Source: a virus. From it: a stretch of 64,000 bases of DNA. Below, one piece after another: positions 1,264 to 45,124 of this stretch. The stretch covers positions 1-64,000 of IMG/VR virus record IMGVR_UViG_3300009508_001156; one strand, given 5' to 3'. The translations under genes were made by a program, and so were the position numbers. The number at the start of each line of letters is the position of its first letter. The stretch's first letter is position 1. The notes under the pieces were generated by a model that was given only the letters and a program-made list of their open reading frames with translations, was not told where the DNA came from and did not search any database.

Positions 1264-1403
1264 GGGGTTATACACCCAAAATTTAGCTCTAACTGAATTG
1301 GCATAGCATTTTTAGAACAACTCACATTATGTGCATCCTTCCATCCACATTCGTCACAACGGCCTTCTAATATTGCTTGGGCTTTGTCGACGTTATCACC
1401 CAT
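1260..1403 (-). CDS. Tiny zinc-finger-like ORF, 47 residues
   Basis: A 47-codon frame starts with ATG at 1403-1401 and ends with TAG at 1262-1260. Its ATG overlaps the stop of the preceding minus-strand gene as TAATG, the coupling seen at many junctions in this block, and it fills the otherwise empty space between the two convergent units. Residues 16-29 read CDECGWKDAHNVSC, giving a possible C-x2-C-x5-H-x3-C metal site. The rest (PIQLELNFGCITP) has no recognised family. It may be a small zinc-binding phage protein; function unknown. Confidence rests on the exact fit to the gap, the coupled start and the cysteine/histidine pattern. Confidence 0.55.
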   Translation of the reverse strand: MGDNVDKAQAILEGRCDECGWKDAHNVSCSKNAMPIQLELNFGCITP

Positions 1404-2074
1404 TACTTATATCCTATTTGCATGTACCTAGTGTATAATGGCATATCTAATTCTCCTGCATATAAGGTATTAGATAATGGATATTTATCTTGCATGTCTG
1501 TTATACTGTCCACAGTGTTTGTGTGCTCATGCCATCTATGATAGTTATTTGTTTGCATAATAATTAACTGATCTGAATCCGCAGTATTAAACCATTGAGA
1601 GCCCATATGTTCGCAACTGGCGTTTATAATCCATTCAGGTTTAACATTTATTAATTCGTTATCAGTAAGAAATTCCATATTGTTTGTAGACAGTGTCAAA
1701 ACATCTGCTACTACACCTTTATATTTCCATGAATTGTTGACATGTTTTTTATTAAGTTCCTCGCTTAATTTTATACTGAATTCGTCTAGATCTATGCCAT
1801 AGATTCGATCAATAAGAAAACTTTGATGTAAAAATTCTACTAATACACCTATCCAGCTGCCTAAAATAGCAACGGTTACATTAGCTTGTAAAGGATTAAC
1901 ATATTGATTAATACAACGTATTAGCCACGCTTTACTTGCAAGCTGGCCCAAACTAAAAGCTTCACAAGGATACTTTCCTGTTCCAACTTCTGAAAGATAG
2001 GTGGGTGATATTCTTAGATTTTTATCAGTAAATTTTTCTACTTCGGACCAGGTATTAAGTTTCATATTTGGCAT
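1403..2074 (-). CDS. Class I SAM methyltransferase-like protein
   Basis: This 223-residue protein resembles a Rossmann-type methyltransferase of the kind found in marine T4-like phages. Around residues 68-100 VAILGSWIG stands where motif I (a glycine-rich SAM loop) belongs, followed by YGIDLDEFS, whose acidic Asp would fit the ribose-binding position of motif II. Later, near residue 150, WIINASCEHMGS fits the post-motif segment. The glycine-rich loop is degenerate, so activity is uncertain. The start could be Met1 at 2074 or Met4 at 2065; both overlap the end of the upstream 1132-residue gene. Its stop is coupled to the 47-residue ORF. It is the penultimate gene of the accessory block. The substrate is unknown, with sugar or protein likely from context. 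Confidence 0.55.
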   Translation of the reverse strand: MPNMKLNTWSEVEKFTDKNLRISPTYLSEVGTGKYPCEAFSLGQLASKAWLIRCINQYVNPLQANVTVAILGSWIGVLVEFLHQSFLIDRIYGIDLDEFSIKLSEELNKKHVNNSWKYKGVVADVLTLSTNNMEFLTDNELINVKPEWIINASCEHMGSQWFNTADSDQLIIMQTNNYHRWHEHTNTVDSITDMQDKYPLSNTLYAGELDMPLYTRYMQIGYK

Positions 2075-5000
2075 TAAACATCTTTTCTAATTCATCAAAA
2101 TCGTTTATTATCTGTAGTTTTTCAGGTTTGTTTGAATTTTCTATTACAAAATTATAACCCTGCTCTGCCCCGTCTTTTGCATATTGTATATAATCTGCAT
2201 CTTCTATCTCAGGTTCAGACCATATAAACAAACGCTGGAAGCTTTCATTGTCGCCCTTTAATGTTAATTTTACTACTTCTCTAAATGCACTACGCCATGT
2301 GCTTAATGGACTGGTATTAAAAGCAGTGATATTACTTACTTCGTCCATTAATTTAAAATCTTTGCTGAGGCCTGTGGTAAAATCTAATCCCCAATTATCA
2401 ACTTTCATAATTTGATTTCTATTAAATAGTTTTACTCCGCCATAGCCGTATTTGTCACCTGTGATTGGGTTAATAGTGGTATAGACGTGTACAGTGTTAG
2501 TATCATATATATCTGGTATGTAATCAAAATTAAAGTCATCTACTATCTCAGCATCGCCGTCTACTACCCACAACATCTCCGTAGTGGACTGGCCTGCTGC
2601 TGCTTTATGTGCTTCAAAAATACCTTTAACATCTTTTATATGTATTGCGTGTGGTACTTTTTCTTTTAGCTTTGCAAATCTTTCATCAGCGTTCTCGTTA
2701 CGGTAAGTAATTAAGGCAACATCAAACTTTTTATATGTAGATCCAACTTCTTTAACGTATTTTTTATCTTTTATACTTGCTGTTTCGATTTGTTTGCTAG
2801 TAAGATTGCTGTAATTTCCATCTGTTGGCCACAGCATAACCCTACCATAACTGTGTAAACGACCTGTATGAGGAGAAAAATCTTGGAATATATGAATTTT
2901 TGCGTTATCTACTCCTGCTGGCTGGAAACTATCTTTTATTAACTGTTCATTTACATCAACATAGGAAGAAACAGTCCATACATAAGAAATTCCTTGGTTT
3001 CTGTATGACTGCAACTCTTGCAAGAAAATCTCTACATTAATTACGTTTAACTTTATCACTGGCCATTCTCGTATCGTAGTAGCAATAATATCTATATATT
3101 TTAAGTTTTCTAGATTATTGTATGTAAAATCACTTAGTGTTAAATCAGCATTATCTTCTATAAAATTAGTCGGAACTAACCGCACATCTCGATACTCACC
3201 ATTAGTATTTTGAAAAACATGCACAAAGTTTTGCTCCCATTGCGATGGGTAATAACTAAAGTCCCATTCGTCATGTAATACAACACTACTATCTAATACC
3301 CAAAACATCTTAAATCCGTTATTTTTTGCTTGGACACTAAAGTCAAACATTTGCTTTGCTAGTGAAGTTTCATTTGTTAAAGTGTGAATAGGAATCTGTT
3401 TCTGGTAACAGCCAGGTTCTAGTATATGTTTTGGTCGTTTCTTTTTGTCGGCATGTCGACTTACTAATTGTATACCCCCGTAATCAAAAACTGAATTAGT
3501 CACTGGATTACATTTTTGCCAAATATGTGTTTTATCATGATCCCAGAATTCTGGTTGGAAATTAAAATCAAAGTCGTCTACTACTGTTACATCAGGGTCA
3601 ATTAACCAGTAGAATCTTTCATCTTTACACTTATTATTAGCTTCTTCTTCGTTATAAAATATTGGGAATTCGGCATCAATATTAGTTTCTTGCCAAGCTT
3701 GCGATCCGTGTATTACTAATGTATTTTTTGTATTTTTTAATTCTCTCCAGTTATCGGGAAGCCAGTATATACCCCCCATCTCATCTGGATACAGTTCAGT
3801 TAACTGATTAGCAAGTTTAAAGTTGTGTATATAGTTAATAGTATCGCTAGAAGGATTCCATATCTTGCTTAACTTATCATTATCTATAATATAATTATCG
3901 TCAACAAGCCAACATAGCCCAGGTATATCCTCATCTATATCAAATAAATCTGACACGGTTTTTGACCTGATTACCGGATATGTAATTTTAGATAGATTTT
4001 CATAGTTACCAATAAACAAATCTCCTTCAATTAACTTATAGTGACCATCATTAACAAAAGTATTTGGTACAAGTTTTATGGGACCAACTCCTTCGTTATC
4101 ATATCTATATTCCAGCTGAGGAGGTAAATGCCATGTGTGTACGTATTGATACGCCCAAGGTTCAGGAACATAATTCAGTGAGTCAATGTCGAACACTAAC
4201 TCCTCGTCTACCAGATAAAACATACTTGTATTAGATAGTTTTTCATACTTGGTGTAATTATTTAATTCTGTGTGATGTACAAAAAATACGTCATAAATTA
4301 TAGGTAATATATCTCTGCACACTTTGTTTTTAGTTATATCAAATTGTTTGTGTACTAATCTTATTCCGCCATTACGAGTATCGTCAGGAGGAAGGTCAGC
4401 TACGTTGTCTGGATAGCGGGCAGGCAATTGCCCAGGAAAGTGAAAAACGTGGGTTACTTTACCATCGTGTTTGTCAGGAACAAAGCTTAGTTTACCGTTA
4501 AAATTGTATTCTAAGTCAACAATCCAAAACCAATCGGTTAGGCTACGGTTTGCATAGAATTCATATGTACTTGCATTAAACGGTTTATTAGTGAAAAATG
4601 TATCATATTCCTCATTTTCAACATGGCAACCTTTGTGTATTTTTATCTGAGCATCCATCCAGTTTTTAGGTACTAAGTAAATGCCTCCCATTGCTCGTGG
4701 ATATTTTTCTTTTAGTTGTTGTGGCATTCGAAAATTATGTATATACTGTTCAGGCTCTCCCACACTAGGAGTCCATTGAAGGGTTTCTTCATTTATCTTA
4801 TAGTTTTTGTCTATTAACCACACATAATCATGATTGTATATATTACGTTGCGAGTAATCTGAAGGATCACTAACATACATTACAGGATACAATCTGCTAT
4901 CCAAATGCATAATCCCGTGATATTTTTTTGTCAGCTTTTTCCAGTCTCTAGGATACAGCGTCACCCCACCTTCATCTTCAGGATAATAGTCTTGAAGTTG

Positions 5001-5453
5001 ATTTTTTAAATGGAAATTATGTATATAAGGAAGTTCAGTGTTATCAGGTGCCCATTCTAAACCACCTTCTGGCAACTTATATCTAGAATCTACACACCAT
5101 ACGTACTCTGCTGTATTATTCTCAAAATATTCGTCTGGATCATCACAATCAAAAAGTATCCTAATAGTTTTTTTACATACAACTTTGTTTATCTCTACAA
5201 CACCTTTAGGAGATTTTTTAGGTAGCAGCCGTACACCGCCGTAATTTTTACTATTCCATTTCCAGATATGTTCATATTGTTCCTGATGTGCAGGAGGACG
5301 GTATTCAAAAATACTATGATCAACAATTTCTATGTCAGAGTCTACTAGCCAATACATTTTTGTCAATGGATTAGCATCTTCCGTGTATTTTTTTGCAAAG
5401 GGATATGTGCTATGCAGTAAGGAATTTGTACCAGTATAATATATATCAAACAT
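2055..5453 (-). CDS. Giant ten-repeat GT-A/glycosyltransferase-like protein
   Basis: This 1132-residue protein consists of ten copies of a unit of about 100 residues. Each unit carries a core (Y/F/W)-W-(L/V)-(V/I)-D-x-x followed 20-30 residues later by a (Y/V)-(I/V)-H-(N/V/I)-(F/W) segment and then GG(V/I)-x-L-x-P. The key Asp falls near residues 38, 122, 215, 313, 416, 518, 619, 721, a degenerate copy near 828, and 965. Only the first (VDSD), seventh (IDPD) and tenth (VDGD) keep a DxD-like triplet. The tenth unit (about 908-1120) is complete and aligns along its length with the protein at 26047-27051, sharing VKG..(E/A)AHK, VDGD, YG.GG(V/L)K and TSP/TASP...FRE.VK. The first nine are short versions of the same fold. 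No signal peptide or membrane segment is seen. A late-promoter-like octamer lies just upstream. A sugar-binding or glycosyltransfer role is inference. Confidence 0.8.
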   Translation of the reverse strand: MFDIYYTGTNSLLHSTYPFAKKYTEDANPLTKMYWLVDSDIEIVDHSIFEYRPPAHQEQYEHIWKWNSKNYGGVRLLPKKSPKGVVEINKVVCKKTIRILFDCDDPDEYFENNTAEYVWCVDSRYKLPEGGLEWAPDNTELPYIHNFHLKNQLQDYYPEDEGGVTLYPRDWKKLTKKYHGIMHLDSRLYPVMYVSDPSDYSQRNIYNHDYVWLIDKNYKINEETLQWTPSVGEPEQYIHNFRMPQQLKEKYPRAMGGIYLVPKNWMDAQIKIHKGCHVENEEYDTFFTNKPFNASTYEFYANRSLTDWFWIVDLEYNFNGKLSFVPDKHDGKVTHVFHFPGQLPARYPDNVADLPPDDTRNGGIRLVHKQFDITKNKVCRDILPIIYDVFFVHHTELNNYTKYEKLSNTSMFYLVDEELVFDIDSLNYVPEPWAYQYVHTWHLPPQLEYRYDNEGVGPIKLVPNTFVNDGHYKLIEGDLFIGNYENLSKITYPVIRSKTVSDLFDIDEDIPGLCWLVDDNYIIDNDKLSKIWNPSSDTINYIHNFKLANQLTELYPDEMGGIYWLPDNWRELKNTKNTLVIHGSQAWQETNIDAEFPIFYNEEEANNKCKDERFYWLIDPDVTVVDDFDFNFQPEFWDHDKTHIWQKCNPVTNSVFDYGGIQLVSRHADKKKRPKHILEPGCYQKQIPIHTLTNETSLAKQMFDFSVQAKNNGFKMFWVLDSSVVLHDEWDFSYYPSQWEQNFVHVFQNTNGEYRDVRLVPTNFIEDNADLTLSDFTYNNLENLKYIDIIATTIREWPVIKLNVINVEIFLQELQSYRNQGISYVWTVSSYVDVNEQLIKDSFQPAGVDNAKIHIFQDFSPHTGRLHSYGRVMLWPTDGNYSNLTSKQIETASIKDKKYVKEVGSTYKKFDVALITYRNENADERFAKLKEKVPHAIHIKDVKGIFEAHKAAAGQSTTEMLWVVDGDAEIVDDFNFDYIPDIYDTNTVHVYTTINPITGDKYGYGGVKLFNRNQIMKVDNWGLDFTTGLSKDFKLMDEVSNITAFNTSPLSTWRSAFREVVKLTLKGDNESFQRLFIWSEPEIEDADYIQYAKDGAEQGYNFVIENSNKPEKLQIINDFDELEKMFNAKYET
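2450..5366 (-). repeat. Ten tandem ~300-bp coding repeats
   Basis: These are divergent coding repeats of 84-137 residues, mostly 93-108, within the 1132-residue gene. They are clear at protein level (WLVD core, YIHNF segment, GG(I/V)xLxP segment) but not obvious as long identical DNA, so the expansion is old or diversified. The unit boundaries are approximate. Confidence 0.75.
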
Positions 5454-5476: not shown

Positions 5477-6973
5477 TTAATCATGTGTAAATACAGGCCT
5501 ACCATATTGTAATGTCCATGCTTTAGCGTCATCCTCGTCGTTAATTATTGGCTGTCCTTTAATATTTAAACTAGTGTTCAGCAACATAGGGCATCCTGTT
5601 GAAGAGTAAAATTCCATTAGCAGTTGGTACAATCCAGGATGTTGGGACTTGTTAACTGTCTGCACACGGCTTGAACCGTCTGCATGAACAATAGCAGGAT
5701 ACATATTAGGGAATTTACATTTAGCAACAAATTGCATATAAGGACTTGATGCTACTGGCATATCAAAATATTTATTAGCGTATTGTTCTAAAACAACAGG
5801 AGCAAAAGGGCGAAATTGTTGGCGCTTCTTAATTACGTTAACTCTTTGTTTAATTTGTTCTCCTCTGGGATCTGCCATCAAACTGCGATTACCTAACGCT
5901 CTTGGTCCAAACTCCGCCCGGCCGTTTGCTATACCAAAAATTTTATTTGATGTTAGTGCACCCATTGCTTTATTCACAGGATACTTTCCTGGTATGTTTG
6001 TTCCTAAGTAAGGGCTTTTCCAGTTTACTTTATTTCCAGTTTGATTAAAATATTCTAATGCTGCGGCACCTAATGCACTACCTGCATCACCAGGATTAGG
6101 CATTATGTGTACATTTTCAAACAAAGAACACAGTCGACTGTTAGCAACACAGTTAAGAGCAACACCTCCCATAAATACTAGATTGTTTTCTCCAGTTATA
6201 TTTTTTGCTATGTTAGCATAGTCCAGTATGTGTTTTTCTGTAATGTTTTGTGCAGCTAATGCTATGTCCATATTATCATATTGATTAAAATGGCTTTTAT
6301 GTGGTAACCCACGTTGTAAATTTTCTCTAAATTTAATAGGGCCTTGTTTATTATTAAAGTAAACATCTGTCATTGCACTTTCGATATCAGCAGCAACAAC
6401 ATCATTCCCATATGCTGCCATTCCCATTAGAATGTATTCATCCTCCATGGGTTTTAATCCGACAAAATGTGTTACTGCGCTATAAAACAACCCTAAGCTG
6501 TGAGGGAATTTTATACTGTGTTTCTTTGTTAATTTATTATCTTTCCAATGCCATATACTAGCAGTATCAAATTCTCCAATAGCGTCAATAACCATAACAG
6601 CAGCACTATCTAAATTGCTTGTTAGTACACCAGCTGCTGCGTGTGTTTCGTGATGCCAATAGCTTTTAATTGGTACATCATTTAAAAACGGCATGCTTGT
6701 TTTAATAAAAGATTCTGCACTAGGTTCACGCAATCCGCTCCATTGTCTGCCAGCAATATTCCTCAAACGCTTTGCCCAAGTTTTTTCATGCAGCACTATG
6801 ACATCAGGTAGACCATAACTGAGAGCTTCAGTCATTAGTTGTTCGTTAAGAAAAGGATCATTCTTTTCTTTACTATAACGTTCAGCATGACTCGCAAACA
6901 ATATTTCTCCATCTTCTATAACGCATACTGCTGCATCATGGAACATACTGCTAATACCTAATATTCTATTCAT
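5477..6973 (-). CDS. NodU/CmcH-family O-carbamoyltransferase
   Basis: At 498 residues this is close to the usual family length. These enzymes move a carbamoyl group from carbamoyl phosphate, through carbamoyl-AMP, to a sugar or antibiotic hydroxyl. The N-terminal Kae1/YgjD-like half opens MNRILGISSMFHDAAVCVI, with a histidine near residue 12, and has HHETHAA near 106-112, fitting the metal-binding histidines. The middle carries GGVALNCVANSRL and NPGDAGSALGAAA. The C-terminal half has FGPRALGNRSLMADPR and FRPFAPVVL, then the nucleotide-site segment and LLNTSLNIKGQPI, all hallmark motifs. Its ATG overlaps the HAD gene stop (ATGA). In context it probably carbamoylates the sugar made by the adjacent heptose-type cassette. 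The family identification is strong; the substrate is inferred. Confidence 0.95.
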   Translation of the reverse strand: MNRILGISSMFHDAAVCVIEDGEILFASHAERYSKEKNDPFLNEQLMTEALSYGLPDVIVLHEKTWAKRLRNIAGRQWSGLREPSAESFIKTSMPFLNDVPIKSYWHHETHAAAGVLTSNLDSAAVMVIDAIGEFDTASIWHWKDNKLTKKHSIKFPHSLGLFYSAVTHFVGLKPMEDEYILMGMAAYGNDVVAADIESAMTDVYFNNKQGPIKFRENLQRGLPHKSHFNQYDNMDIALAAQNITEKHILDYANIAKNITGENNLVFMGGVALNCVANSRLCSLFENVHIMPNPGDAGSALGAAALEYFNQTGNKVNWKSPYLGTNIPGKYPVNKAMGALTSNKIFGIANGRAEFGPRALGNRSLMADPRGEQIKQRVNVIKKRQQFRPFAPVVLEQYANKYFDMPVASSPYMQFVAKCKFPNMYPAIVHADGSSRVQTVNKSQHPGLYQLLMEFYSSTGCPMLLNTSLNIKGQPIINDEDDAKAWTLQYGRPVFTHD

Positions 6974-8864: not shown

Positions 8865-9699
8865 TTCTTTCCTTTATTAAATCGTGTGTTGTAATGTGTT
8901 GTATTACATTATCTGCTATTATTTTATGACATTCTAACGAAGGGTGATGATCGGTAGGGCAATTTTCACCAAACGTACTTTTGTCGTGCTTGATTACTAG
9001 ATGAGGATTATCGTTCATCAAGTCATACTGACAATCATAAGTGATTCCATTATATGTTATGCGCATAAATCTTTCAGCTAGCCAAGGATCACTTATTATG
9101 TGATTTACATTCTCGGCTGGCCAGGTATATAGCATAGTAGGTATTCCATGAGCTTCTAATTTTTGTAAAAATGCTTTTACATTTCCCACAACCATTTTAT
9201 TATGAGCGTTGGTAAATTCTTGTATTGTTTTAAAGCCGTGAATTTCCATTATTTCAGGAAGTAGATTAGGATCGTTTAATGCATCCAAATAGGTCATATC
9301 TGAAGGAAATAATTGGCTGTTATTGTCTCTGTGGGGTTGTGTCATTTGGACAACAAAAAGGTGTATTTCCTCAGGATAGTAATAATGTTCCCGATTGGGA
9401 CCCCCCAATATATCTTCGCCCCAGTAATTAATCCAATCGGAGTTTGACCCTCCGTTCCTAAGTTGGTTTAGTTGAACACTGTTAAAATAGTTTGCAACAT
9501 GCCAGCTATAATTATTTCTCATTACATACTTTTTTTGTATCTCAGTAACAAGATTATCTTGATAATCATATTCGCCTACTGGGACCACTGTGCTTAAATC
9601 GCTATAATAATAAAGGCCTTGTCCCCAGGTAAAACTGCATCCTGCAAATGCAATTGCTTTCTCAGTCCAACGTGTATTGTTATTCATCGGTTGTTTCAT
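8839..9699 (-). CDS. SGNH-hydrolase-like protein, 286 residues
   Basis: The N-terminus carries AIAFAGCSFTWGQGL, in which Ser22 sits where the nucleophile of GDSL/SGNH enzymes belongs (block I, with G-C-S replacing G-D-S). NGGSNSDWINYW near 82-93 fits block II/III (Gly and Asn oxyanion-hole residues), and PTDHHPSLECHKIIADNV near the C-terminus fits the Asp/His block V. The fold would make it an esterase, acetyl hydrolase or acyltransferase on glycans. No signal peptide is visible, so it acts in the cytoplasm. Met1 (9699) overlaps the E1-beta-like gene by 20 bases and Met5 (9687) by eight; I keep Met1. A second, shorter relative lies at 15656-16354. Removing or adding acetyl groups on a sugar is inferred. 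Confidence 0.65.
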   Translation of the reverse strand: MKQPMNNNTRWTEKAIAFAGCSFTWGQGLYYYSDLSTVVPVGEYDYQDNLVTEIQKKYVMRNNYSWHVANYFNSVQLNQLRNGGSNSDWINYWGEDILGGPNREHYYYPEEIHLFVVQMTQPHRDNNSQLFPSDMTYLDALNDPNLLPEIMEIHGFKTIQEFTNAHNKMVVGNVKAFLQKLEAHGIPTMLYTWPAENVNHIISDPWLAERFMRITYNGITYDCQYDLMNDNPHLVIKHDKSTFGENCPTDHHPSLECHKIIADNVIQHITTHDLIKERNERELARS

Positions 9700-10210
9700 A
9701 TAAGTCAGGGTACTCCAGTATTAAATGTACACCTCCTTGATCTGTTGCTTCTGCATAACTGTTGTAAATTTGAGCTGGTTTAGTTAATTTTACGAAATTG
9801 ACGTTTTTACACATTGATTGGAATTCATCAAAATAATCACCTTGGTGTTGAAGCCCAGGATTAAGCGGTGTGGTTGATCCTTTGCACACTCTAATTATCA
9901 AATTAACTTCCTTATTAGTTAAAAGTTTCCATTTGTCGGCATGATTGACTAGTTGGTTAGTAGCACTTATCAAAAAGTCCCATCTAGGAAAAATTGATAC
10001 TACTGTACCTCCTGTTAGTGCATAACCCAAACTCATACCCATTTGTACTTCTTCGAACACTGGCACTTCTAATAATTTATCACTAGGGACATTTACCAAA
10101 GTGCCGCTTGTAACGTTACCAGGATAAACCGTTTGCTGCCCAATAAATTTACTTAAAGGTTTTTTGCCTATGTAGGTCATTGCATTTTTTAGTTCGTCCT
10201 TGTACAGCAT
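9680..10210 (-). CDS. E1-beta/transketolase pyrimidine-domain-like protein
   Basis: This resembles the N-terminal pyrimidine-binding domain of the beta subunit of pyruvate/branched-chain 2-oxoacid dehydrogenase E1. The segment VPVFEEVQMGMSLGYALTGG, including the conserved glutamate that activates thiamine diphosphate, is followed by SIFPRWDFLISATNQLVNHADKW, matching the FxDF...DQ(I/L)VNHAAK block. At 176 residues it is only about half of a normal E1-beta and lacks the C-terminal transketolase domain. The frame opens at 10234, but the ATG at 10210 is preceded by AGGAG at suitable distance and follows the upstream stop with one base between. Its likely partner is the E1-alpha-like gene at 15030-15659. 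The reaction is unknown; C-C ligation in sugar synthesis is a guess. Confidence 0.75.
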   Translation of the reverse strand: MLYKDELKNAMTYIGKKPLSKFIGQQTVYPGNVTSGTLVNVPSDKLLEVPVFEEVQMGMSLGYALTGGTVVSIFPRWDFLISATNQLVNHADKWKLLTNKEVNLIIRVCKGSTTPLNPGLQHQGDYFDEFQSMCKNVNFVKLTKPAQIYNSYAEATDQGGVHLILEYPDLYETTDE

Positions 10211-10211
10211 C

Positions 10212-10637
10212 CTATCTATCTCCTGTTTGTTCATCCCAACTAACTGACCAATCTTTCCAATCAGCTGCCAAGCAGTCTACTTTATAATCTTTTCTACCGC
10301 CCACTGCTTCTTGTATTACATTTTTACTGGTATTACGAATACCATTTAATCCATGCGTTAGTTCTAGATTATTACCCTCCTTGATTCCTCGTCGGTAATT
10401 AGACTCATTATGCCAAATATGTAAATTCATTTGAGCACATACTATGATAGCTCTAAGGGTTTTCGCATCAAGTTTAGGATTTTCTTCATCTAAAATTAGC
10501 TGTATGTCATGCACAATGTCGTTAATTTCATCTGCATATTCATTTTTAAACTCTGGTATAAACACTTCTTTAAGTTGAACAATTGATAACCTATCTATTA
10601 GGTCTCCTAGTGTGTGATTGTATTTTCTAGATTTCAT
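10212..10637 (-). CDS. Conserved helical hypothetical protein, 141 residues
   Basis: I do not recognise a function. The ATG at 10637 overlaps the upstream epimerase stop as ATGA, so the longer 173-codon frame is rejected. The protein opens MKSRKYNHTLGDLIDRLSIVQLKEVF and appears almost wholly helical, with IIVCAQMNLHIWHNESNYRRG near the middle. The invariant-looking His/Trp/Asn/Arg residues (HxWHNE-x-x-YRRG) could form an active or binding site. I believe similar proteins with the LGDLIDRLSI opening occur in marine T4-like phages and sugar gene clusters. It lies between an SDR epimerase and the E1-beta-like gene, so a role in the same sugar pathway is possible but unproven. Confidence 0.6.
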   Translation of the reverse strand: MKSRKYNHTLGDLIDRLSIVQLKEVFIPEFKNEYADEINDIVHDIQLILDEENPKLDAKTLRAIIVCAQMNLHIWHNESNYRRGIKEGNNLELTHGLNGIRNTSKNVIQEAVGGRKDYKVDCLAADWKDWSVSWDEQTGDR

Positions 10638-12635: not shown

Positions 12636-13601
12636 TTATAAATCAAAATACGTAGTTATAGTTTTTTTGATCCCATCTCTGAGAGAAGTATTAGGTAGTA
12701 TATCATATTTTTCTTGGCGAGCTGAACTTAAACATCTTATAGGATCTCCGTTCATTTTTGTTTCATCCCAAACAATATTTCGTTCTTCGCCTGAAATTTC
12801 TGTGTAAACATCTACTATAGTTTCTATAGTTTCTTTAATACTTACTGCTTTGCCGCATCCAAAGTTAATAATATCATTTACTTCTTTTTTTACTGCATCA
12901 ATGCTTGCTTGAGCAACATCGTCACTAAATACAAAGTCTCGTTTTGGGGATCCATCGCCCCACGCCACAATGTTTCCTGGAACATTTTTTAATTTCCAAA
13001 TATTACTACTAATAACTGTTGCATCTTGAGCAAAGTTATCGTTAACCCCGTAAATGTTTGACGGTCGAATAACAGTCCAATTGTTCCATCCATATTGTAC
13101 CTGTAAAGATTCTAATGTTAATTCACCCATGCGCTTTGTCCAGCCTGGATACCAATCATTTTTAGATGGAACTGTTGCCCATACATCATCTTCATACATA
13201 ATTTGGCTAGGTTGGTACACGCCTACAGAAGATAGATAAACAAACCAGTCCACTTTTGCATCAAATGCTGCTTTAATCATATTTGTATTAAACATTAACA
13301 TCGGAAACAAAAAGTCGCAAGGTTGTTTTGAAGACCTTGCAGGAGATCCTTTAATGCCTGCAATATGTAATACTATGTTAATGTCTTTATTTTTAAAAAG
13401 ATCTTCACACTTATCTAGATAAGTCAAGTCTGAGTTGACTATGTGTAGATTAGGATGTTTTCCTAATTGTTCTAATTTGTTAGTATTAATATCCACTGCA
13501 TAAACATTACTTGCTCCTTCTGCTAAACATTTTTCAACAGCAGGTAAGCCTACAAGCCCGTTTGCGCCTGTAACAATGATGTTTTTTGATTTAATTTCCA
13601 C
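12636..13601 (-). CDS. SDR-family NDP-sugar epimerase, Tyr-less active site
   Basis: This 321-residue extended SDR starts with GTG at 13601 behind AAAGGA and overlaps the upstream transferase-like gene by 11 bases. GANGLVG (12-18) is the NAD loop; VYAVDIN, VLHIAGIKG, YLSSVGVY, RPSNIYGVNDNF and WGDGSPKRDFVF follow in the family order. The catalytic helix reads YPGWTKRMGELTLES: the lysine is present, but the residue four before it is proline, with tyrosine five before. I recall related marine phage and bacterial proteins with (F/Y)-x-G-W-(A/T)-K-R-x-G-E-L, so this may be a separate subfamily rather than a dead enzyme. The substrate is probably an NDP-hexose or heptose intermediate. It is the first of the three SDR genes in transcription order. 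Confidence 0.85.
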   Translation of the reverse strand: MEIKSKNIIVTGANGLVGLPAVEKCLAEGASNVYAVDINTNKLEQLGKHPNLHIVNSDLTYLDKCEDLFKNKDINIVLHIAGIKGSPARSSKQPCDFLFPMLMFNTNMIKAAFDAKVDWFVYLSSVGVYQPSQIMYEDDVWATVPSKNDWYPGWTKRMGELTLESLQVQYGWNNWTVIRPSNIYGVNDNFAQDATVISSNIWKLKNVPGNIVAWGDGSPKRDFVFSDDVAQASIDAVKKEVNDIINFGCGKAVSIKETIETIVDVYTEISGEERNIVWDETKMNGDPIRCLSSARQEKYDILPNTSLRDGIKKTITTYFDL

Positions 13602-15045
13602 TATATATTCCTTTTATGTATTCCATACTTTCTATATACGGAGAATCTCCGCAAAATGTAAGTAGGTGTTGTTGATTATGTATAAGTATATCTGTTAAAC
13701 TATAGTACATATCGTGGACAGTTTGCATGTCCATATTGTTAATTTTGTTTATTTGCTCTGCTATCATTGTAAGTCGTATGCTGGGATCTGCTTCCAAATC
13801 GTAGGATTCATCTATTACTGAATCAAAAGTTTTAAAGCCTTGAGTTTTTAAATATTTTAAAGCACCTGCTGGTCCTATAAAAATAAATGGTTGTAAATTT
13901 TGAATAGGTCTAAATGTTTTTTCACTAAGAAACATATAATCAAGTCCAGTTTCTGTAGTGATATTAAAGTAACTTTCTGAGTAAAATTGTTTGTTATTAC
14001 AACTACTAGTACTAAACCCTCCCAGATTGTCCCTGGGCACTGATTGTGTATCTAATTCTAACGGAATAATTTTTTTAGCTTCGTCTACCACTTTTTGGCT
14101 AAACTTAGCAATAGGGGGCAACCAGGGCATCGAATCGCGGTCTATAATATTCTTTAAGCCGCTGTTTGGAATTTTGGATGCAATATCGTAATCAGAATTT
14201 ATATTGAGTAATATATCCTGCGCTACCTCCCGGCCACCAGCCATTGACAAAAAACTAAATAAATTGTCTTTTAACCAGTTTTGTTCTATGCTTTTACATA
14301 GAAGCCAAAGTCTATGAGGGCGTAAAGATCTATTAAAACTTAAAAATTTGTGTTTTCTTATCTTACTAGAATCCAAATCAGCTGCTGTAACATACTCTGA
14401 CTTTAAGCCTATGGGATCTATAATGCTGTCTTTAGAGGCCTCAACAAAAGTATTTGCGGCGCACCAAGGATAAAACTTACCCAACGGGATTATTTTCATC
14501 TTAAGATGTTTTGTAGTTTCTACCGCACTGTCGGTGTCGCCAGCTATAAACAATACGTTGTTAGGATTAATACCATTAAGTTCGAACTTATACGATATAC
14601 TCTTTTGGCCACAGTGTGCCTGGTTCACTGTGGGATCGTGAGAGTTGTCGAACAGAATTTTTACTGTTCCTGATCTCATAAATGCTAACAATTCAGGAGA
14701 TAATACACTAAAAAAATCGTAGGAATCACTCACAACACCACCGAAATCGCGCATTATGTTGTTAGGATATATCCATATAGTATCGCTCTGAGGGTCTATG
14801 TCTTGGACTCTCACTTCTTCAATACCGGCTTGCTTCCACCATTGTGATTTTAGATGGTAGGGGAAATTTAGTCCAACTGCGTGGCAGGCTTCGTGAGCTA
14901 AATCATTTGGAGATTGCGCATTACACGAAGGTTCTTCCCATCTGCGTATCACTTCTTTTAGTGCCGCTGCATTCAAACCATTAGTAATAGGATAACCATC
15001 ATGCCAATTTTGATAAACAAATTTTACATTCAAAATATTACCCAT
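13591..15045 (-). CDS. Glycosyltransferase-like protein, paralogue 1 of 3
   Basis: This 484-residue protein is one of three large relatives (also 16896-18359 and 19472-20950). The C-terminal third is the clearest part: LSEKTFRPIQNLQPFIFIGP, then LKYLKTQGFKTFDSVIDES, YDLEADPSIR and a final NQQHL stretch. The S/T-E-K-x-x-(K/R)-P-I segment resembles the nucleotide-sugar-binding part of GT10 fucosyltransferases and other GT-B enzymes, so a glycosyltransferase is the best guess. A central block, HKFLSFNRSLRPHRLWLL, also recurs in the paralogues (YLFKSRRPRFHR; YIFNNKQPRPWR). The N-terminal third differs among the three, suggesting different acceptors. No membrane or signal segment is seen. It follows the E1-alpha-like gene with a 16-base overlap. 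Confidence 0.6.
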   Translation of the reverse strand: MGNILNVKFVYQNWHDGYPITNGLNAAALKEVIRRWEEPSCNAQSPNDLAHEACHAVGLNFPYHLKSQWWKQAGIEEVRVQDIDPQSDTIWIYPNNIMRDFGGVVSDSYDFFSVLSPELLAFMRSGTVKILFDNSHDPTVNQAHCGQKSISYKFELNGINPNNVLFIAGDTDSAVETTKHLKMKIIPLGKFYPWCAANTFVEASKDSIIDPIGLKSEYVTAADLDSSKIRKHKFLSFNRSLRPHRLWLLCKSIEQNWLKDNLFSFLSMAGGREVAQDILLNINSDYDIASKIPNSGLKNIIDRDSMPWLPPIAKFSQKVVDEAKKIIPLELDTQSVPRDNLGGFSTSSCNNKQFYSESYFNITTETGLDYMFLSEKTFRPIQNLQPFIFIGPAGALKYLKTQGFKTFDSVIDESYDLEADPSIRLTMIAEQINKINNMDMQTVHDMYYSLTDILIHNQQHLLTFCGDSPYIESMEYIKGIYSGN

Positions 15046-15659
15046 TTCCCCGTACCGTAATGAGGATATTTTGATTCGTATGTGTAATAAATTACATCGT
15101 CTGGTATATCACGTTTTCCGTTCCAGGTTTCTTTAGTTGGCGTGTTAGTTGCTACGCCGTTATCTTCTACTATAAAGTGTAAAGGTAAATTAAAGTTACG
15201 TGCATATTTGTGTGTCTCATAAAACAATCCACTCTCAAAACACATGTCACCAATAAAGCACCAAACACGATCTTTACTGCCGGTTTCTTTTAACCCCAGT
15301 GCTAAACCTAATGCTATACTTAAACACCCACCTACTATTGCACTACTAGTAAAATTATGTTCAACATTAGACAGTGTAATGCTGTTTCCTGCTAATATAT
15401 CTGATTTTACCTGATCAGGCGGAACTCCTTTTAGCAATGCATGGTAGTGACTTCTCCATGTACTGAACACCCAATCTTGTTTACTTATACACTGGAATAT
15501 TTCTATTAGTTGTTGTTCGTTCCCATGACTAAGATGTACAGGTCCATGTATTTTGCCTGCTTCCCAGTGTTCAACTATATCCAACTCAAAGTCTTTAAGA
15601 TCTTGTACTGAGTAATCGATGTCACGCACTTTTTCATATGCAGATAAATTTTTGATCAT
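15030..15659 (-). CDS. Thiamine-diphosphate E1-alpha-like protein
   Basis: This 209-residue protein matches the TPP-binding core of the E1-alpha subunit of 2-oxoacid dehydrogenases. STWRSHYHALLKGVPP (66-81) fits the YRSH/H-x-x-x-LAKG block. Then comes SSAIVGGCLSIALGLALG, and IGDMCFESGLFYETHKYA (136-153) ending IVEDNGVATNTPT. The GD at 137-138 and Asn at 167 make the GDx-(x)n-N diphosphate/Mg motif. It is well short of a full E1-alpha and has no C-terminal extension. The ATG at 15659 overlaps the upstream SGNH gene as ATGA, so the longer frame to 15680 is rejected. It is presumed to pair with the E1-beta-like gene at 9680-10210, five genes downstream. No E2 or E3 is present, so a non-dehydrogenase reaction is likely. 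Confidence 0.8.
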   Translation of the reverse strand: MIKNLSAYEKVRDIDYSVQDLKDFELDIVEHWEAGKIHGPVHLSHGNEQQLIEIFQCISKQDWVFSTWRSHYHALLKGVPPDQVKSDILAGNSITLSNVEHNFTSSAIVGGCLSIALGLALGLKETGSKDRVWCFIGDMCFESGLFYETHKYARNFNLPLHFIVEDNGVATNTPTKETWNGKRDIPDDVIYYTYESKYPHYGTGKWVIF

Positions 15660-16354
15660 GGCTTGTCCCGTTGTATACAATTAATTATCTTTTGTGCTAC
15701 TTCTTGATGGCCTTTCTTGGAAAGGTGGTAATCTTTTGGACCGTCAGGTAAATCTACTAAACGCAGTCTGTGTCTGTCAGCGAACACTAACATATCAGTA
15801 AGTCGGTCTTTATCGCCAAAGTCTACAATTGATATTCTGGGATCAAAATCACTCGATTTTGGTGAATTAACATCCCAATCAAGTGGTACCCAAATAACCG
15901 AATATCCTTGATGCTTTAAATAACCATCAACCACAGTGATGTTTTGAGTTAACTGTTGAGATGCAAGTAAATTATTATAGGAATATGCTAGATACATGTT
16001 ATAAAAATCTTTAATCCATGGCTCAGGTTGGTCTGAGTTCATTACCTGATAATAATTATTATGGCTACTGCTAGATACTTGCAACCTAGAAAGAATAGAG
16101 GTTTGTATAATTAATAAAGTATTGTGATTGTCTGCTGCTTGTTGCTTACTGCGAGTATTAGCAAATTTGTACACACTGTCCAAGATACCAGCCGTCGAAC
16201 ATCCTTGAAGTCCATGATTTACTTCCTTACATCCTAAGTGTTCAGCAACCAATGATGAGAATCTGTCCATGCGATTCCAGTTGCTGCTTTCTAGCTCTAA
16301 CGAGGTTCCAAAAGTAAAACTGCATCCAAAAGCATGGCATTCATTGTATGTCAA
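15656..16354 (-). CDS. SGNH-hydrolase-like protein, 232 residues
   Basis: The N-terminus CHAFGCSFTFGTSLE places Ser12 as the probable nucleophile of an SGNH/GDSL-type hydrolase, and NHGLQGCSTAGI near 46-57 fits the Gly/Asn blocks. DYHLSKKGHQEVAQKI near the C-terminus supplies the Asp-x-His dyad. The arrangement is the same as in the 286-residue protein at 8839-9699, though the two differ strongly elsewhere. Probable activities are deacetylation or acyl transfer on a glycan, in the cytoplasm. It overlaps the RmlC-like gene upstream by four bases and the E1-alpha-like gene downstream by four, so it is firmly inside the sugar operon. Confidence 0.65.
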   Translation of the reverse strand: MTYNECHAFGCSFTFGTSLELESSNWNRMDRFSSLVAEHLGCKEVNHGLQGCSTAGILDSVYKFANTRSKQQAADNHNTLLIIQTSILSRLQVSSSSHNNYYQVMNSDQPEPWIKDFYNMYLAYSYNNLLASQQLTQNITVVDGYLKHQGYSVIWVPLDWDVNSPKSSDFDPRISIVDFGDKDRLTDMLVFADRHRLRLVDLPDGPKDYHLSKKGHQEVAQKIINCIQRDKP

Positions 16355-16899
16355 GATTCATCCCTTGTTTGTAAAATAGGATTATTTGTGGGCCATTTGA
16401 TGTTAAAATTTTTATCATTCCACTTAACAGTGCCTTGTGCATTTTCATCTACATATTCTCCTTCATAAAATAAATTGTAGTGGAACATGCAATCAGTTAA
16501 AGCAAAAAACCCGTTAGCAAATCCTGGCGGAACTAATACTTGATCTCTGGTGTGTTCACTGAGTATATAACTTTCCCACAAACCATATGTACTGCTATCT
16601 GGTCTAACGTCTAATACTACGAAGTACATATCACCCACTATTGCTTGAACTAATTTCCAAGTTTTGTTGTCGTAATGTAATCCTCGCAAAACTCCTTTGT
16701 AACTTTTACTAAATCTTGCGTGTATGTTCACATTGCTAGTCAAGTATTCTAGTACTGGATGTTTTTGACTGTGGAAAGTTGTAAAAATTTCTCCTCTGTA
16801 TTCCCTAAATACTGAAGGCGAGTAAACAGGAACTTGTTGCCCAAATGATTGTAAATAGCTTGTAGCTACTTCGTCCCACTTTTGTAATTTATAATTCAT
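16351..16899 (-). CDS. rmlC: dTDP-4-dehydrorhamnose 3,5-epimerase-like (RmlC family)
   Basis: This 182-residue cupin-fold protein has the RmlC hallmark KGVLRGLHYD, with His75 as the catalytic base of the family. Then come LVQAIVGDMYFVVLDVRPDSSTYG, VLVPPGFANGFFAL and a late KWNDKNFNIKWP. Length fits the family. RmlC converts dTDP-4-keto-6-deoxyglucose to the L-rhamno epimer. RmlA, RmlB and RmlD are not recognisable here, so the enzyme either draws on host intermediates or epimerises a different keto-sugar (the family includes heptose 3,5-epimerases), which would fit the heptose cassette nearby. Overlaps of four bases on both sides tie it to its neighbours. Confidence 0.85.
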   Translation of the reverse strand: MNYKLQKWDEVATSYLQSFGQQVPVYSPSVFREYRGEIFTTFHSQKHPVLEYLTSNVNIHARFSKSYKGVLRGLHYDNKTWKLVQAIVGDMYFVVLDVRPDSSTYGLWESYILSEHTRDQVLVPPGFANGFFALTDCMFHYNLFYEGEYVDENAQGTVKWNDKNFNIKWPTNNPILQTRDES

Positions 16900-18359
16900 T
16901 CATTTATCCACCTAGCTGGTAATTTACGTACTAACGGTTCTATAAGAAGGTTAGCATTAACAAAATTGCATTGATCAATCAAATGACGCCGGTTGTGTAC
17001 CAAAATATCCCATTGGGACCAATACCAGTTGTGTATTTCTTCTTGTGGCAATGCACATAACTTGTCTATTTCTTTTAATATCATAAGCATTCTTTTGTTG
17101 TAATCTGGTTCTAGATCATAACTTTCGTCAATATAGCCATCAAATGTGCGGTATCCTAACTCGCGCAATCGTCCAAGTGTGCCTGGCACAGTGCAAAAAA
17201 TAAATGGTTGAAAATTAGCTACGGGTTTCCACACTTTTTCTGTTAGGATATGGTGCTCCCTTTTCTGATGCCAACTTTCCCAGCCAAAACCAGTTTCAGT
17301 GCAGATATAAAAATAGCTGTTAGAGTATATGTTTAACTCAGAGTCTCTCCAAGTTTGAACAGTTTGTTCTGTGAGGTCTTCTTCGCCAACCAGTGTTTTG
17401 GGAAGCATACTGTTAAATGAATCAACTAAGTCCATGTTTATATAGTCAATATCAGGAAAATGTATCCTGAGAGAATTTAATGTGTGATCAGGTAACTCCC
17501 CTGCTCTTAAATAGCTCCAATTGCCTTTTTTTAAATTATCTTTACTAAGTAAATGCAAACCAATGACTTGGCGGTGAAATCTAGGCCGACGACTTTTAAA
17601 CAAATAATGATAAGTGCGTAGGTTGTCTTTATTTGCTAATAAGTTTTTTTCGGTAACTGAATGCTCTCCTGAGGAATAAGTTTGGCTTGACGCAATCATT
17701 AAATAGGGGAAATTTGCTACTTGTAATCTTTTATTATCTGGGAACCATTCATTATAAACATCTTCTGCATTCAAAGAATTAATAAACACCACAACGTTTT
17801 CTGCTGGAAATCCAGCGGCGTCTAGTGTCGCATGTATTTGTTCGTATTCTGTGCGAAGTATCCAATTTTCTAAACCGTAATCAAGTAATAATGTTGCTTT
17901 GCCGCTGCGAACATCTTGAATTGCTTGTTCACTCATAAACTTATAGAAATAGTCCCCATTTACTTTAAACTTACTAAGCTTGTTGTCACCCTCTGGCCTA
18001 CCATTAAAGTGATCCAGATGCGCTGTTAAATGTATTGGGTATACATAACGGTGATACTTTGTACGATTAGTCATTGTGTCACAGTTTATGGTTATTATCC
18101 TTGCAAAGCAAGAAGCGGATAGTGTAGATCCGTGATTGCTTGCAGCCATATTATAATTTCTATTATTAAACAATTTGCTTACAGCATCATGATTGTTTAT
18201 TGTAAACGGGCTGGGAGCGTCATCGTGCTGGCTGTTCATATAATTTAACATGAATAAATCCATACTAGTTGCATTAGGCAGATAGTAGTTAGGAAATGCA
18301 TAATCATATAAAAATGTAATTTGTTTTTCAGGTTTATGAGTTTGAGCCAGTAGTCGCAT
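16896..18359 (-). CDS. Glycosyltransferase-like protein, paralogue 2 of 3
   Basis: This 487-residue protein shares its plan with those at 13591-15045 and 19472-20950. It opens with a segment containing FLYDYAFPNYYLPNATSMD, which parallels FGYDYFFPSGPLPNALDFD in paralogue 3. The middle holds YHYLFKSRRPRFHRQVIGL. The C-terminal third has SNSYFYICTETGFGW, LTEKVWKPVANFQPFIFC, LRELGYRTFDGYIDES and YDLEPDYNKRMLMI. This C-terminal T-E-K-x-x-K-P motif resembles GT10/GT-B donor-binding elements. Paralogues 2 and 3 are closest to each other and flank a radical SAM gene. It follows that gene after three bases, and its stop overlaps the RmlC-like ATG. The acceptor and sugar are unknown. Confidence 0.6.
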   Translation of the reverse strand: MRLLAQTHKPEKQITFLYDYAFPNYYLPNATSMDLFMLNYMNSQHDDAPSPFTINNHDAVSKLFNNRNYNMAASNHGSTLSASCFARIITINCDTMTNRTKYHRYVYPIHLTAHLDHFNGRPEGDNKLSKFKVNGDYFYKFMSEQAIQDVRSGKATLLLDYGLENWILRTEYEQIHATLDAAGFPAENVVVFINSLNAEDVYNEWFPDNKRLQVANFPYLMIASSQTYSSGEHSVTEKNLLANKDNLRTYHYLFKSRRPRFHRQVIGLHLLSKDNLKKGNWSYLRAGELPDHTLNSLRIHFPDIDYINMDLVDSFNSMLPKTLVGEEDLTEQTVQTWRDSELNIYSNSYFYICTETGFGWESWHQKREHHILTEKVWKPVANFQPFIFCTVPGTLGRLRELGYRTFDGYIDESYDLEPDYNKRMLMILKEIDKLCALPQEEIHNWYWSQWDILVHNRRHLIDQCNFVNANLLIEPLVRKLPARWINE

Positions 18360-18362
18360 AGT

Positions 18363-19475
18363 TTATATTACCTCGTGAAAGTTATGACTTACAAAAGGTA
18401 AATCTTTTATTTTGTTTGTTTCAGTTAAAAAATTATCGTGCTGCGGATGATCACGATCAAATACAGAAATGTTTCTTATGTCTTCTGGGCGATATGCGCT
18501 GTGTTGCCAATGCACAATACGTCTAAAATTCAGCGTTAGGTTACCCTGAAAATCTTTTAATAAATCTGTCATAGTTAGCCAAAAGGTATGCATCTCCGTG
18601 TAGTTTAATTCACTTACAACCATGCTTAAGGTAATATCGTTAATTTGTTCTTGTGTTGCAACAAACGATATGTTTTGTAACAGTTTATTCCAGTCTCCAT
18701 TTAACCTAGTTACTGTTTCGTATGTGTGTTGTGTTCCTGCGTCTACGCTAAATTCAATACTGCGAATAAACTCTTTGGCATTAAGACTATCCCACATTTT
18801 TTTATTGAGTAAGTTACCATTCGTAATTATGTGTATCATCTCCATGTTAGGATAATTGTCAATAGGAAATTCTTGCAAGTAATTCCTAAATGCTCTGCTG
18901 TAAAAAGGATCTCCGCTTCCTGTTATCATTAACTTTTTAGCATTGTGTGCAAAATTATCAGTGATAATATCTGCAATCTTTCTTTTTTTAATTTGTAATG
19001 GATCTTCCTCTTTGAGATTAATTACTATATCATCACGGCAACTGGGACATTTAAGATTGCAGGCGCGATCAAAACCAAACAATATTTCCTCTGGTCCTTC
19101 TTTGAATTCCTCAACAAATGTTATAGGATCTTTTTCTTTTAGATATTGTTCTTGGAATTCAACCCTAGTTATTATAGGCAAAGGGTGTGTAGGTTGTTTA
19201 TTGTTAACGATTTCGCTAAGATGAGGGCACACTTTTTTATCACAGTACTCGTAAGAACCATCTAATACGCTGTGCCTGATATCTTTAATTATTTCTCCAT
19301 TAAACCAATCTTCAGCAATAGTAATTTCCCCGTTGTTCTCTAACTCATAGTGTCTGGAAATAGGAGTTAGTGTTATCCAACTAGGACAACAAACCCAAGA
19401 AAAATTTTCCTGAATGTCTAAATATTTAAATGGGTTCATACATACCCAATTGCGCAATATCTCTTGATCGCTCAT
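18363..19475 (-). CDS. Radical SAM protein with extra cysteine cluster
   Basis: This 370-residue enzyme carries the radical SAM motif DRACNLKCPSCRDD, with Cys139, Cys143 and Cys146 for the 4Fe-4S cluster that cleaves S-adenosylmethionine. LMITGSGDPFYS is the GGE-like SAM-binding segment (here GSGDP). MIHIITNGNLL fits the following strand. N-terminal cysteines (Cys12, Cys29-Cys30, Cys78 and Cys83) could bind an auxiliary cluster, as in SPASM/twitch enzymes but placed before the core. Related proteins modify peptides, sugars or cofactors. It overlaps the next transferase-like gene by ATGA and is followed by another, so it probably acts with them. The substrate is unknown. Confidence 0.85.
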   Translation of the reverse strand: MSDQEILRNWVCMNPFKYLDIQENFSWVCCPSWITLTPISRHYELENNGEITIAEDWFNGEIIKDIRHSVLDGSYEYCDKKVCPHLSEIVNNKQPTHPLPIITRVEFQEQYLKEKDPITFVEEFKEGPEEILFGFDRACNLKCPSCRDDIVINLKEEDPLQIKKRKIADIITDNFAHNAKKLMITGSGDPFYSRAFRNYLQEFPIDNYPNMEMIHIITNGNLLNKKMWDSLNAKEFIRSIEFSVDAGTQHTYETVTRLNGDWNKLLQNISFVATQEQINDITLSMVVSELNYTEMHTFWLTMTDLLKDFQGNLTLNFRRIVHWQHSAYRPEDIRNISVFDRDHPQHDNFLTETNKIKDLPFVSHNFHEVI

Positions 19476-26046: not shown

Positions 26047-27051
26047 TTAATGTCCTATTAACCCTTTCTCAAGTAATTCTTGAATCTGTTTTTCCCTAAC
26101 CATAACACCCCAACGCCTAGGAGCAGTGTAGGTTGTTTTAAAGAACTTACTCACTAGTGGATTTGGATCAAATAACAACATTTGGTTAACTTCAGTGTTT
26201 ATTTCATTTCCTAACGCTGTTATCTCTTTATATAATAAATGATCATCCCACTGCTGCTTGGTATGAGGACACTGATTTTGCTTGTTGCCATTAAATTGAG
26301 GAGCGACTTGCTTGTAAAAGAAATCCTTAAACCAAGTGTAATCTGCAATGTTGTTAGTGTCCCAATCTGACAGCACTGTCATTTTGCAGCCCAGCCTTGC
26401 ACCATATATAGCCCACACCCCATTTTCCACATCATCACCAATATTGCACCAAACTTGTAATCTATTATAGTTGCCGTACCAGATTTTTTCCTTAAACTCG
26501 TTAGCTTGTACTCGCTTGCCTTGATCTAAACTCATCTTAACGCCTTCTCTAAATCCTGCGCGAAACGCCTGGAATGGGCTTGCAGTTTGATGAACTTCTG
26601 AGAACGTGTCGTTAAGTTGAATATAGTTTAACTTCCAACAAAACTCCATACCTTCGCCGTCGGTGGCTGCTTCATGTGTGCTAATAGTTTTAGTGTATTC
26701 TGTAGGCCAACATTTAAGTCCGCCGTTGCCGTAGACTAATCCGTTTAGCAAATTTCTTCCGTTCCAACTAAAGATGCTTTCGCTTATTTCATTACCATAC
26801 ATATCAGTGTCTGGTATATCTAGCGTTTGATCAAAAAAGTCTGGCATTACTATATTATCGCCGTCTACTGTGATGAACCGGTCTGTTTCTGCTATTTGTG
26901 CAGCACGTTTATGTGCAGCATCAAAACCTTTTACACCATGAACACGTTTTGCCCATGGAACTTTATTTAAGAGATCAGACCAGTGTTCTTCGCAGTTAGG
27001 TTCGTCATAACTAATATACACAATATCTAATTCTGTTACTTCTACTTTCAT
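26047..27051 (-). CDS. GT-A-like putative glycosyltransferase
   Basis: This 334-residue protein has a nucleotide-sugar-transferase look. DIVYISYDEPNCEEHW opens a first strand, VHGVKGFDAAHKRAA follows, then FITVDGDNIVMPDFF with VDGD as the metal-binding DxD. YGNGGLKCWP and FQAFRAGFREGVKM follow, and a long C-terminal part contains TYTAPRRWGVMVREKQ. It is the single-unit relative of the last unit in the 1132-residue repeat protein at 2055-5453, so the two are probably from one family. It overlaps the next upstream gene by TAATG. The acceptor is unknown. Presence of DxD and fold-like order of segments support a glycosyltransferase, but no exact family (GT2, GT8 or other) can be named. Confidence 0.65.
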   Translation of the reverse strand: MKVEVTELDIVYISYDEPNCEEHWSDLLNKVPWAKRVHGVKGFDAAHKRAAQIAETDRFITVDGDNIVMPDFFDQTLDIPDTDMYGNEISESIFSWNGRNLLNGLVYGNGGLKCWPTEYTKTISTHEAATDGEGMEFCWKLNYIQLNDTFSEVHQTASPFQAFRAGFREGVKMSLDQGKRVQANEFKEKIWYGNYNRLQVWCNIGDDVENGVWAIYGARLGCKMTVLSDWDTNNIADYTWFKDFFYKQVAPQFNGNKQNQCPHTKQQWDDHLLYKEITALGNEINTEVNQMLLFDPNPLVSKFFKTTYTAPRRWGVMVREKQIQELLEKGLIGH

Positions 27052-45108: not shown

Positions 45109-45124
45109 CAAAAAAATCCTTGCT

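Follow-up and report, generated by a model that had tools for sequence, protein, structure and literature searches.

The window analysed here is a 64,000-nucleotide stretch of viral DNA, positions 1 to 64,000 of the IMG/VR record IMGVR_UViG_3300009508_001156, which derives from a large aquatic phage. This phage is a T4-like myovirus, and its portal protein shares 53% identity with the one of the PA5oct jumbo-phage group. Since relatives of the protein described below are found on contigs of up to 340 kb, the 111 kb of the record are probably part of a larger genome. The gene under study (2055..5453) encodes a protein of 1132 residues that consists of ten tandem units, nine of them shortened and the tenth contained in a full-length domain with a predicted glycosyltransferase A (GT-A) fold. 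The gene and its parts are as follows, with bit scores from a hidden Markov model (HMM) of the unit and E values from the full-domain profile A6.

2055..5453, minus strand: whole gene of the tandem-repeat GT-A protein, 1132 residues, ATG start
5208..5417, minus strand: unit 1, residues 13-82, DSD kept, 62.6 bits
4935..5189, minus strand: unit 2, residues 89-173, without DxD, 54.4 bits
4650..4892, minus strand: unit 3, residues 188-268, without DxD, 60.0 bits
4332..4646, minus strand: unit 4, residues 270-374, without DxD, 62.5 bits
4056..4298, minus strand: unit 5, residues 386-466, without DxD, 46.7 bits
3741..3989, minus strand: unit 6, residues 489-571, without DxD, 45.5 bits
3441..3689, minus strand: unit 7, residues 589-671, DPD kept, 60.9 bits, A6 E 5.7e-15
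3159..3431, minus strand: unit 8, residues 675-765, without DxD, 66.4 bits
2808..3101, minus strand: unit 9, residues 785-882, without DxD, 40.7 bits
2058..2741, minus strand: C-terminal full-length GT-A domain, residues 905-1132, holding unit 10, predicted to be catalytic, A6 E 9e-90
2553..2561, minus strand: DxD motif DGD, residues 965-967, invariant among 145 homologues

Pairwise identity among the units is just 16-36%, which explains why plain BLASTP self-comparison of the protein does not detect the repeats. The unit HMM was trained solely on upstream units of other phages, all units of the 1132-residue protein being excluded. It recognizes ten units with 41-70 bits each (69.9 bits for unit 10), compared with a top score of 7.3 bits among 500 residue shuffles and no unit match in the reversed protein. 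When the window's own record is scanned with profile A6, which was built without upstream units, units 1, 7 and 8 are recovered. The ten copies proposed by a first-pass annotation made from the sequence are thus real, and the DxD motif is confined, exactly as claimed there, to units 1 (DSD), 7 (DPD) and 10 (DGD). Unit and domain profiles also support its view that nine shortened copies stand ahead of one complete transferase domain. The protein itself has no significant match in Pfam, PHROGs or NCBIfam, and no Pfam GT2 match at E≤1.

The C-terminal domain has a full-length counterpart elsewhere in the window.

26047..27051, minus strand: separate full-length GT-A paralogue, 334 residues; AlphaFold2 model with a predicted local distance difference test score (pLDDT) of 88.5 and a predicted template modelling score (pTM) of 0.87

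Residues 905-1132 align with this protein by BLASTP (E 7e-17, 31% identity) and by profile-profile comparison (probability 100%, E 7e-52). The kinship of the two had been proposed earlier, and the lack of a significant profile score between unit 10 and the 26047-27051 protein had been named beforehand as the result that would speak against it; that comparison was run and gave the second of these values. The profile of the upstream units is closer to their own C-terminal domain (E 4e-24) than to the separate protein (E 7e-9; reversed profiles 0.2-0.4), which disfavours derivation of the units from the latter. The 26047-27051 protein is an ancient paralogue and is far better conserved than the repeat protein (67-78% versus 34-45% identity). 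Exactly two full-length domains, one in a repeat protein and one in a paralogue, are encoded in 19 of 20 viral contigs, and the remaining contig (G004) is a fragment that encodes only the paralogue.

Conservation of the active-site positions was assessed in an alignment of the 145 homologues, which comprise 61 phage C-terminal domains, 21 paralogues, 46 actinobacterial domains and 17 domains from other bacterial assemblies. Residues D965, D967, K1008 (in a GGxK motif) and R1058 are 100% conserved in all four groups, and E1059 is conserved in 95-100%. In the AlphaFold2 model, the RE pair at 1058-1059 lies on a helix and is a candidate counterpart of the xED catalytic base on the alpha-F helix. 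With DxD, GGxK and RE essentially invariant from phages to Streptomyces, catalytic activity of the C-terminal domain is very probable.

Modelling places the repeat protein in the GT-A glycosyltransferase fold class. The AlphaFold2 model of the whole chain, built with 23 relatives, has a mean pLDDT of 77 and is adequate for the units. The first fifty PDB matches of this model found by Foldseek consist of GT-A glycosyltransferases, multidomain-enzyme entries that include a GT-A domain and GT-A-containing synthases, with chondroitin polymerase at the top; the list for the paralogue model is similar and is led by SunS and WrtF. For both models the Foldseek probability of GT-A matches reaches 1.0 despite low TM-scores, which are low because the core alone aligns. 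Weak matches to each of the Pfam GT2 families PF00535 (Glycos_transf_2) and PF13641 occur in 10 of 50 family members, with a best E value of 4.3e-4 (PF00535). Collectively, the PDB matches of two models and the Pfam matches bear out the GT-A-like fold suggested by the first-pass annotation. Several points weigh against this assignment. The pTM of the full-length model is 0.41, and the model does not give the arrangement of the units. Foldseek E values are ~1e-3 to 5e-4 and TM-scores 0.1-0.38, which support the fold class rather than an exact glycosyltransferase family, and some nucleotidyltransferases, which share the fold, appear further down the paralogue's PDB list. No family member is seen to rise above a curated family threshold in the returned tables, where the best Pfam E value is 4e-4. 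An HMMER profile search of PDB sequences returned no glycosyltransferase, so that among PDB entries GT-A enzymes were reached by structure comparison only. In a viral structure library, the UniProt entries A0A6J5L5L5 and A0A6J5LK21 match in fold with E values of 1.5e-39 and 6e-35 along most of their length and, on these models, very likely belong to the same family; both are deposited as ‘Uncharacterized protein [uncultured Caudovirales phage]’, without annotation of function or repeats.

The upstream units are not complete transferases, because the RE helix and the rest of the domain's C-terminal half are missing from all nine; seven of the nine are also without DxD. The same trend holds for 67 distinct phage members of the family, with their 376 middle units. 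DxD is present in 65 of 67 C-terminal units, in 3 of 67 first units and in 89 of 376 middle units. Other positions persist, since the D, H and GG positions are retained in ~72-93% of middle units. Of the 376, 351 have the histidine of the HVF/HVW strand and 316 have the first aspartate. Pairwise dN/dS ratios (nonsynonymous over synonymous substitution rates) are 0.06-0.15 for the upstream units, computed on just under 800 to more than 1000 codons, versus 0.08-0.35 for the C-terminal domain in the same pairs; these are simple Nei-Gojobori estimates, with saturated dS in some pairs. The upstream units are thus under purifying selection as strong as that acting on the catalytic domain. The term ‘vestigial’, used in the first-pass annotation, is misleading in view of this selection, even though catalytic residues are lost.

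Copy number is variable. It ranges from 2 to 18 units among the 67 distinct phage proteins (i.e. 1 to 17 extra units), with extremes of two units in proteins of 323-434 residues and 17-18 units in a protein of 1953 residues (L021). In long-form relatives, counterparts at matching positions exist for units 1-5 and for the last few units, and gains and losses fall in the middle. Recent internal duplications are seen in several relatives (units 2 and 3 of L085, 89% identical; units 4 and 5 of L059, 78%; units 11 and 13 of L025, 74%).

The repeat family is real and more widely spread than repeats in one phage protein. In IMG/VR, 117 stretches carry the N-terminal pattern and at least 599 the catalytic domain. 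Homologues in bacterial assemblies (Streptomyces, Kitasatospora, Bdellovibrionia and marine metagenome-assembled genomes) consist of one domain without extra units, the exception being a metagenome-assembled genome (L155) with a fusion of the paralogue domain to this domain; some metagenome-assembled contigs with homologues may be phage DNA. Within the sequences searched, tandem expansion appears confined to phages, since the relatives from bacterial assemblies are single-domain proteins. In a scan of genome contigs, the N-terminal patterns found no match, whereas the C-terminal patterns did find bacterial relatives. Searches of the available named phage genomes by tblastn gave no match for the 1132-residue protein, the paralogue, a 12-unit relative or a 2-unit relative. 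This absence is not a failure of the tool, because a control query, the carbamoyltransferase, matched 139 records. The Streptomyces homologue, of 234 residues, is part of a conserved operon that also encodes three other glycosyltransferases (two GT-B-type and one GT2-type). This four-gene glycosyltransferase operon is seen in Streptomyces and Kitasatospora loci (L192, L164 and others), and its single-domain homologue is without Pfam or NCBIfam match.

The gene neighbourhood includes functions of glycan metabolism, and the following genes are among the neighbours.

1403..2074, minus strand: gene like class I S-adenosylmethionine (SAM) methyltransferases, 223 residues, directly downstream; weak family match (E 0.009)
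5477..6973, minus strand: NodU/CmcH-type carbamoyltransferase, directly upstream; commonest -1 neighbour of long forms
18363-19475, 20964-22481 and 22481-24031, minus strand: radical SAM genes, with a Pfam Radical_SAM match for the first and a twitch-domain match (NF033640, E 1.8e-86) for the last

Among 58 unique loci, the downstream gene most often belongs to the methyltransferase-like family of 1403-2074, and the previous gene is most often a carbamoyltransferase where the form is long and the paralogue where it is short. In the window, a cassette extends from 5.4 to 26 kb with genes for the carbamoyltransferase, a cupin, a PfkB kinase, a cytidylyltransferase, epimerases, a UDP-sugar dehydrogenase and radical SAM proteins, and is followed by tail-fibre genes. 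Repeat protein and paralogue are adjacent in short-form loci. In bacterial assemblies the paralogue accompanies the single-domain version, adjacent to it in Bdellovibrionia and fused to it in one Neisseriaceae assembly. The Bdellovibrionia pair stands beside twitch-domain radical SAM genes (NF033640), the type of 22481-24031, and in an Oligoflexia assembly (L159:4804-6708) one chain combines a radical SAM domain with the GT-A domain.

Other genes of the window deserve mention. Three proteins of ~490 residues (13591-15045, 16896-18359 and 19472-20950, all on the minus strand) look paralogous by eye, with common segments resembling SEKT..P...PFIF and F.TFDG.IDESYDLE; two of them were checked and have no Pfam match, and the trio is possibly another glycosyltransferase family. 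Two short open reading frames (ORFs) of the minus strand, 5 kb apart (9680-10234 and 15030-15680), resemble thiamine pyrophosphate enzymes, one matching a transketolase pyrimidine domain and the other being E1-dehydrogenase-like; a split two-subunit enzyme of this type in a phage is possible. The protein of 4112 residues encoded at 32773-45111 (minus strand) has a subtilase domain at its N-terminus (Peptidase_S8, E 1.5e-29) and, behind it, Big_9, cadherin-like and FG-GAP repeats; it adjoins the tail-fibre genes and looks like a tail fibre or adhesin with its own protease. Finally, a minus-strand ORF of 5343 residues (47898-63929), among the largest of the record, has 4900 residues without Pfam match at 1e-5.

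How such a protein might work can be proposed as follows. On balance, we find it probable that it is a phage GT-A glycosyltransferase in which catalytically dead GT-A cores, arrayed at the N-terminus, position the acceptor glycan, and thus probably an enzyme whose handle for its target is built in and variable in length. The C-terminal domain (residues 905-1132) would bind a metal ion and a nucleotide sugar via DxD and would use its invariant K and RE in transfer. The nine upstream units would be truncated GT-A cores whose beta-strands surround the D, H and GG motifs and which are not catalytic alone. Their chain most likely binds or positions an acceptor glycan or glycoconjugate and sets the reach of the enzyme, and its length would evolve by gain and loss of middle units. 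With its sugar-nucleotide, carbamoyltransferase, methyltransferase-like and radical-SAM neighbours, the protein most likely builds or decorates a surface glycan, which may be that of the infected host (receptor change or superinfection exclusion) or of the virion. Computation shows the tandem units, their kinship, the fold class, active-site residues conserved in one domain and lost in the others, purifying selection, a variable number of units and the association with glycan genes; sugar transfer by the C-terminal domain, acceptor binding by the units and a surface-glycan target are what we infer from the data. That the units form a multivalent sugar-binding scaffold, as the first-pass annotation put forward, is plausible. 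A more specific version, in which the dead-core arrays are a multivalent acceptor-binding arm or ruler with 1 to 17 dead units tuned to host or virion glycans, is more tentative, and we hold it to be possible rather than probable.

Other explanations differ mainly in the role given to the upstream units. That these are functionless, decaying relics of duplication would agree with the lost catalytic motifs and the divergence to 16-36% identity, but the low dN/dS of the upstream region and the D, H and GG positions kept in most middle units leave scarcely any credence for decay, which is rejected on the dN/dS values. The units might instead act in turn as catalytic sites of a processive polymerase, as do the two GT-A domains of chondroitin polymerase. 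The rank of that enzyme among the PDB matches and the DxD kept in units 1 and 7 agree with this idea, yet every upstream unit is without the half bearing the invariant RE helix and DxD is found in the first unit of so few relatives (3 of 67). Rather than two or more intact catalytic GT-A domains, the protein has a full domain in the last of its ten units only. Processivity of the chondroitin type, also raised in the first-pass annotation, is therefore quite improbable, because a single domain keeps the full active site.

Two further alternatives are unlikely but carry more weight. The units could be a pseudo-enzyme chaperone or partner scaffold that binds the 26047-27051 paralogue or pathway enzymes, and not glycan, in the manner of COSMC for T-synthase (PMC7185993). 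The strict pairing of repeat protein and paralogue in 19 of 20 viral contigs and their adjacency or fusion in other loci favour such a partnership. The paralogue is also present, however, alongside short forms whose upstream part is one unit, so that nine or more units are unnecessary for pairing, and copy number varies without obvious change of partner. About as doubtful is the idea that the C-terminal domain transfers its sugar not to a surface glycan but to a small molecule, peptide or nucleic acid that radical-SAM and methyltransferase partners make or modify. It finds arguments in the twitch radical-SAM neighbours of phage and Bdellovibrionia loci, in the fusion in L159 and in the known DNA-glycosylating phage enzymes (work cited in PMC12619734), but the neighbours in the window are mainly sugar-nucleotide and surface-glycan genes beside tail-fibre genes.

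Known systems share some features with the favoured arrangement of an active domain preceded by dead cores. GT2-like GT-A enzymes (chondroitin polymerase K4CP, WrtF, SunS and RmlT) resemble both models in fold, in DxD and, putatively, in a conserved acidic residue on a helix after the core. They form a compact domain, whereas the phage protein family has up to 17 truncated cores ahead of it, and they show no family-level sequence match above cut-off to the phage protein. In LH3/PLOD3, a non-catalytic GT-A accessory domain is fused to an active one, possibly for substrate recognition (PMC6082870); unlike the phage protein, this is an animal enzyme of unrelated sequence with a single accessory domain and no tandem array. 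COSMC is a catalytically dead GT-A protein kept as scaffold or chaperone (PMC7185993) but, in contrast to the phage units, a separate single-domain protein of the eukaryotic GT31 family. The upstream units, with DxD lost yet sequence conserved (dN/dS 0.06-0.15), qualify as pseudo-glycosyltransferases, a likeness to LH3 and COSMC in mode and not in descent. As regards genomic context, PMC7029224 describes host-recognition clusters of pelagimyophages in which tail fibres and glycosyltransferases are accompanied by rfaE, UDP-glucose dehydrogenase and radical SAM cassettes. Similar sets of genes in pelagimyophages and jumbo phages have been interpreted as serving modification of the O-antigen or surface against superinfection (PMC7029224, PMC7824862). 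These glycan clusters of large and marine phages resemble the window in having sugar-nucleotide genes, glycosyltransferases and radical SAM cassettes beside tail-fibre genes, but the keyword passages of both papers make no mention of tandem transferase cores.

The literature searched contains no description of an enzyme with tandem dead GT-A cores, in agreement with the earlier remark that no such described system is known. Dead GT-A domains are known singly, as accessory domains or chaperones, and a selected tandem array of up to 17 per chain is, in that literature, undescribed. The family supplies a function class for proteins now listed as uncharacterized. It is widespread in uncultivated phages and has clonable single-domain relatives in Streptomyces and Bdellovibrionia, and it allows direct study of how enzyme-derived repeats turn into ligand-binding arms.

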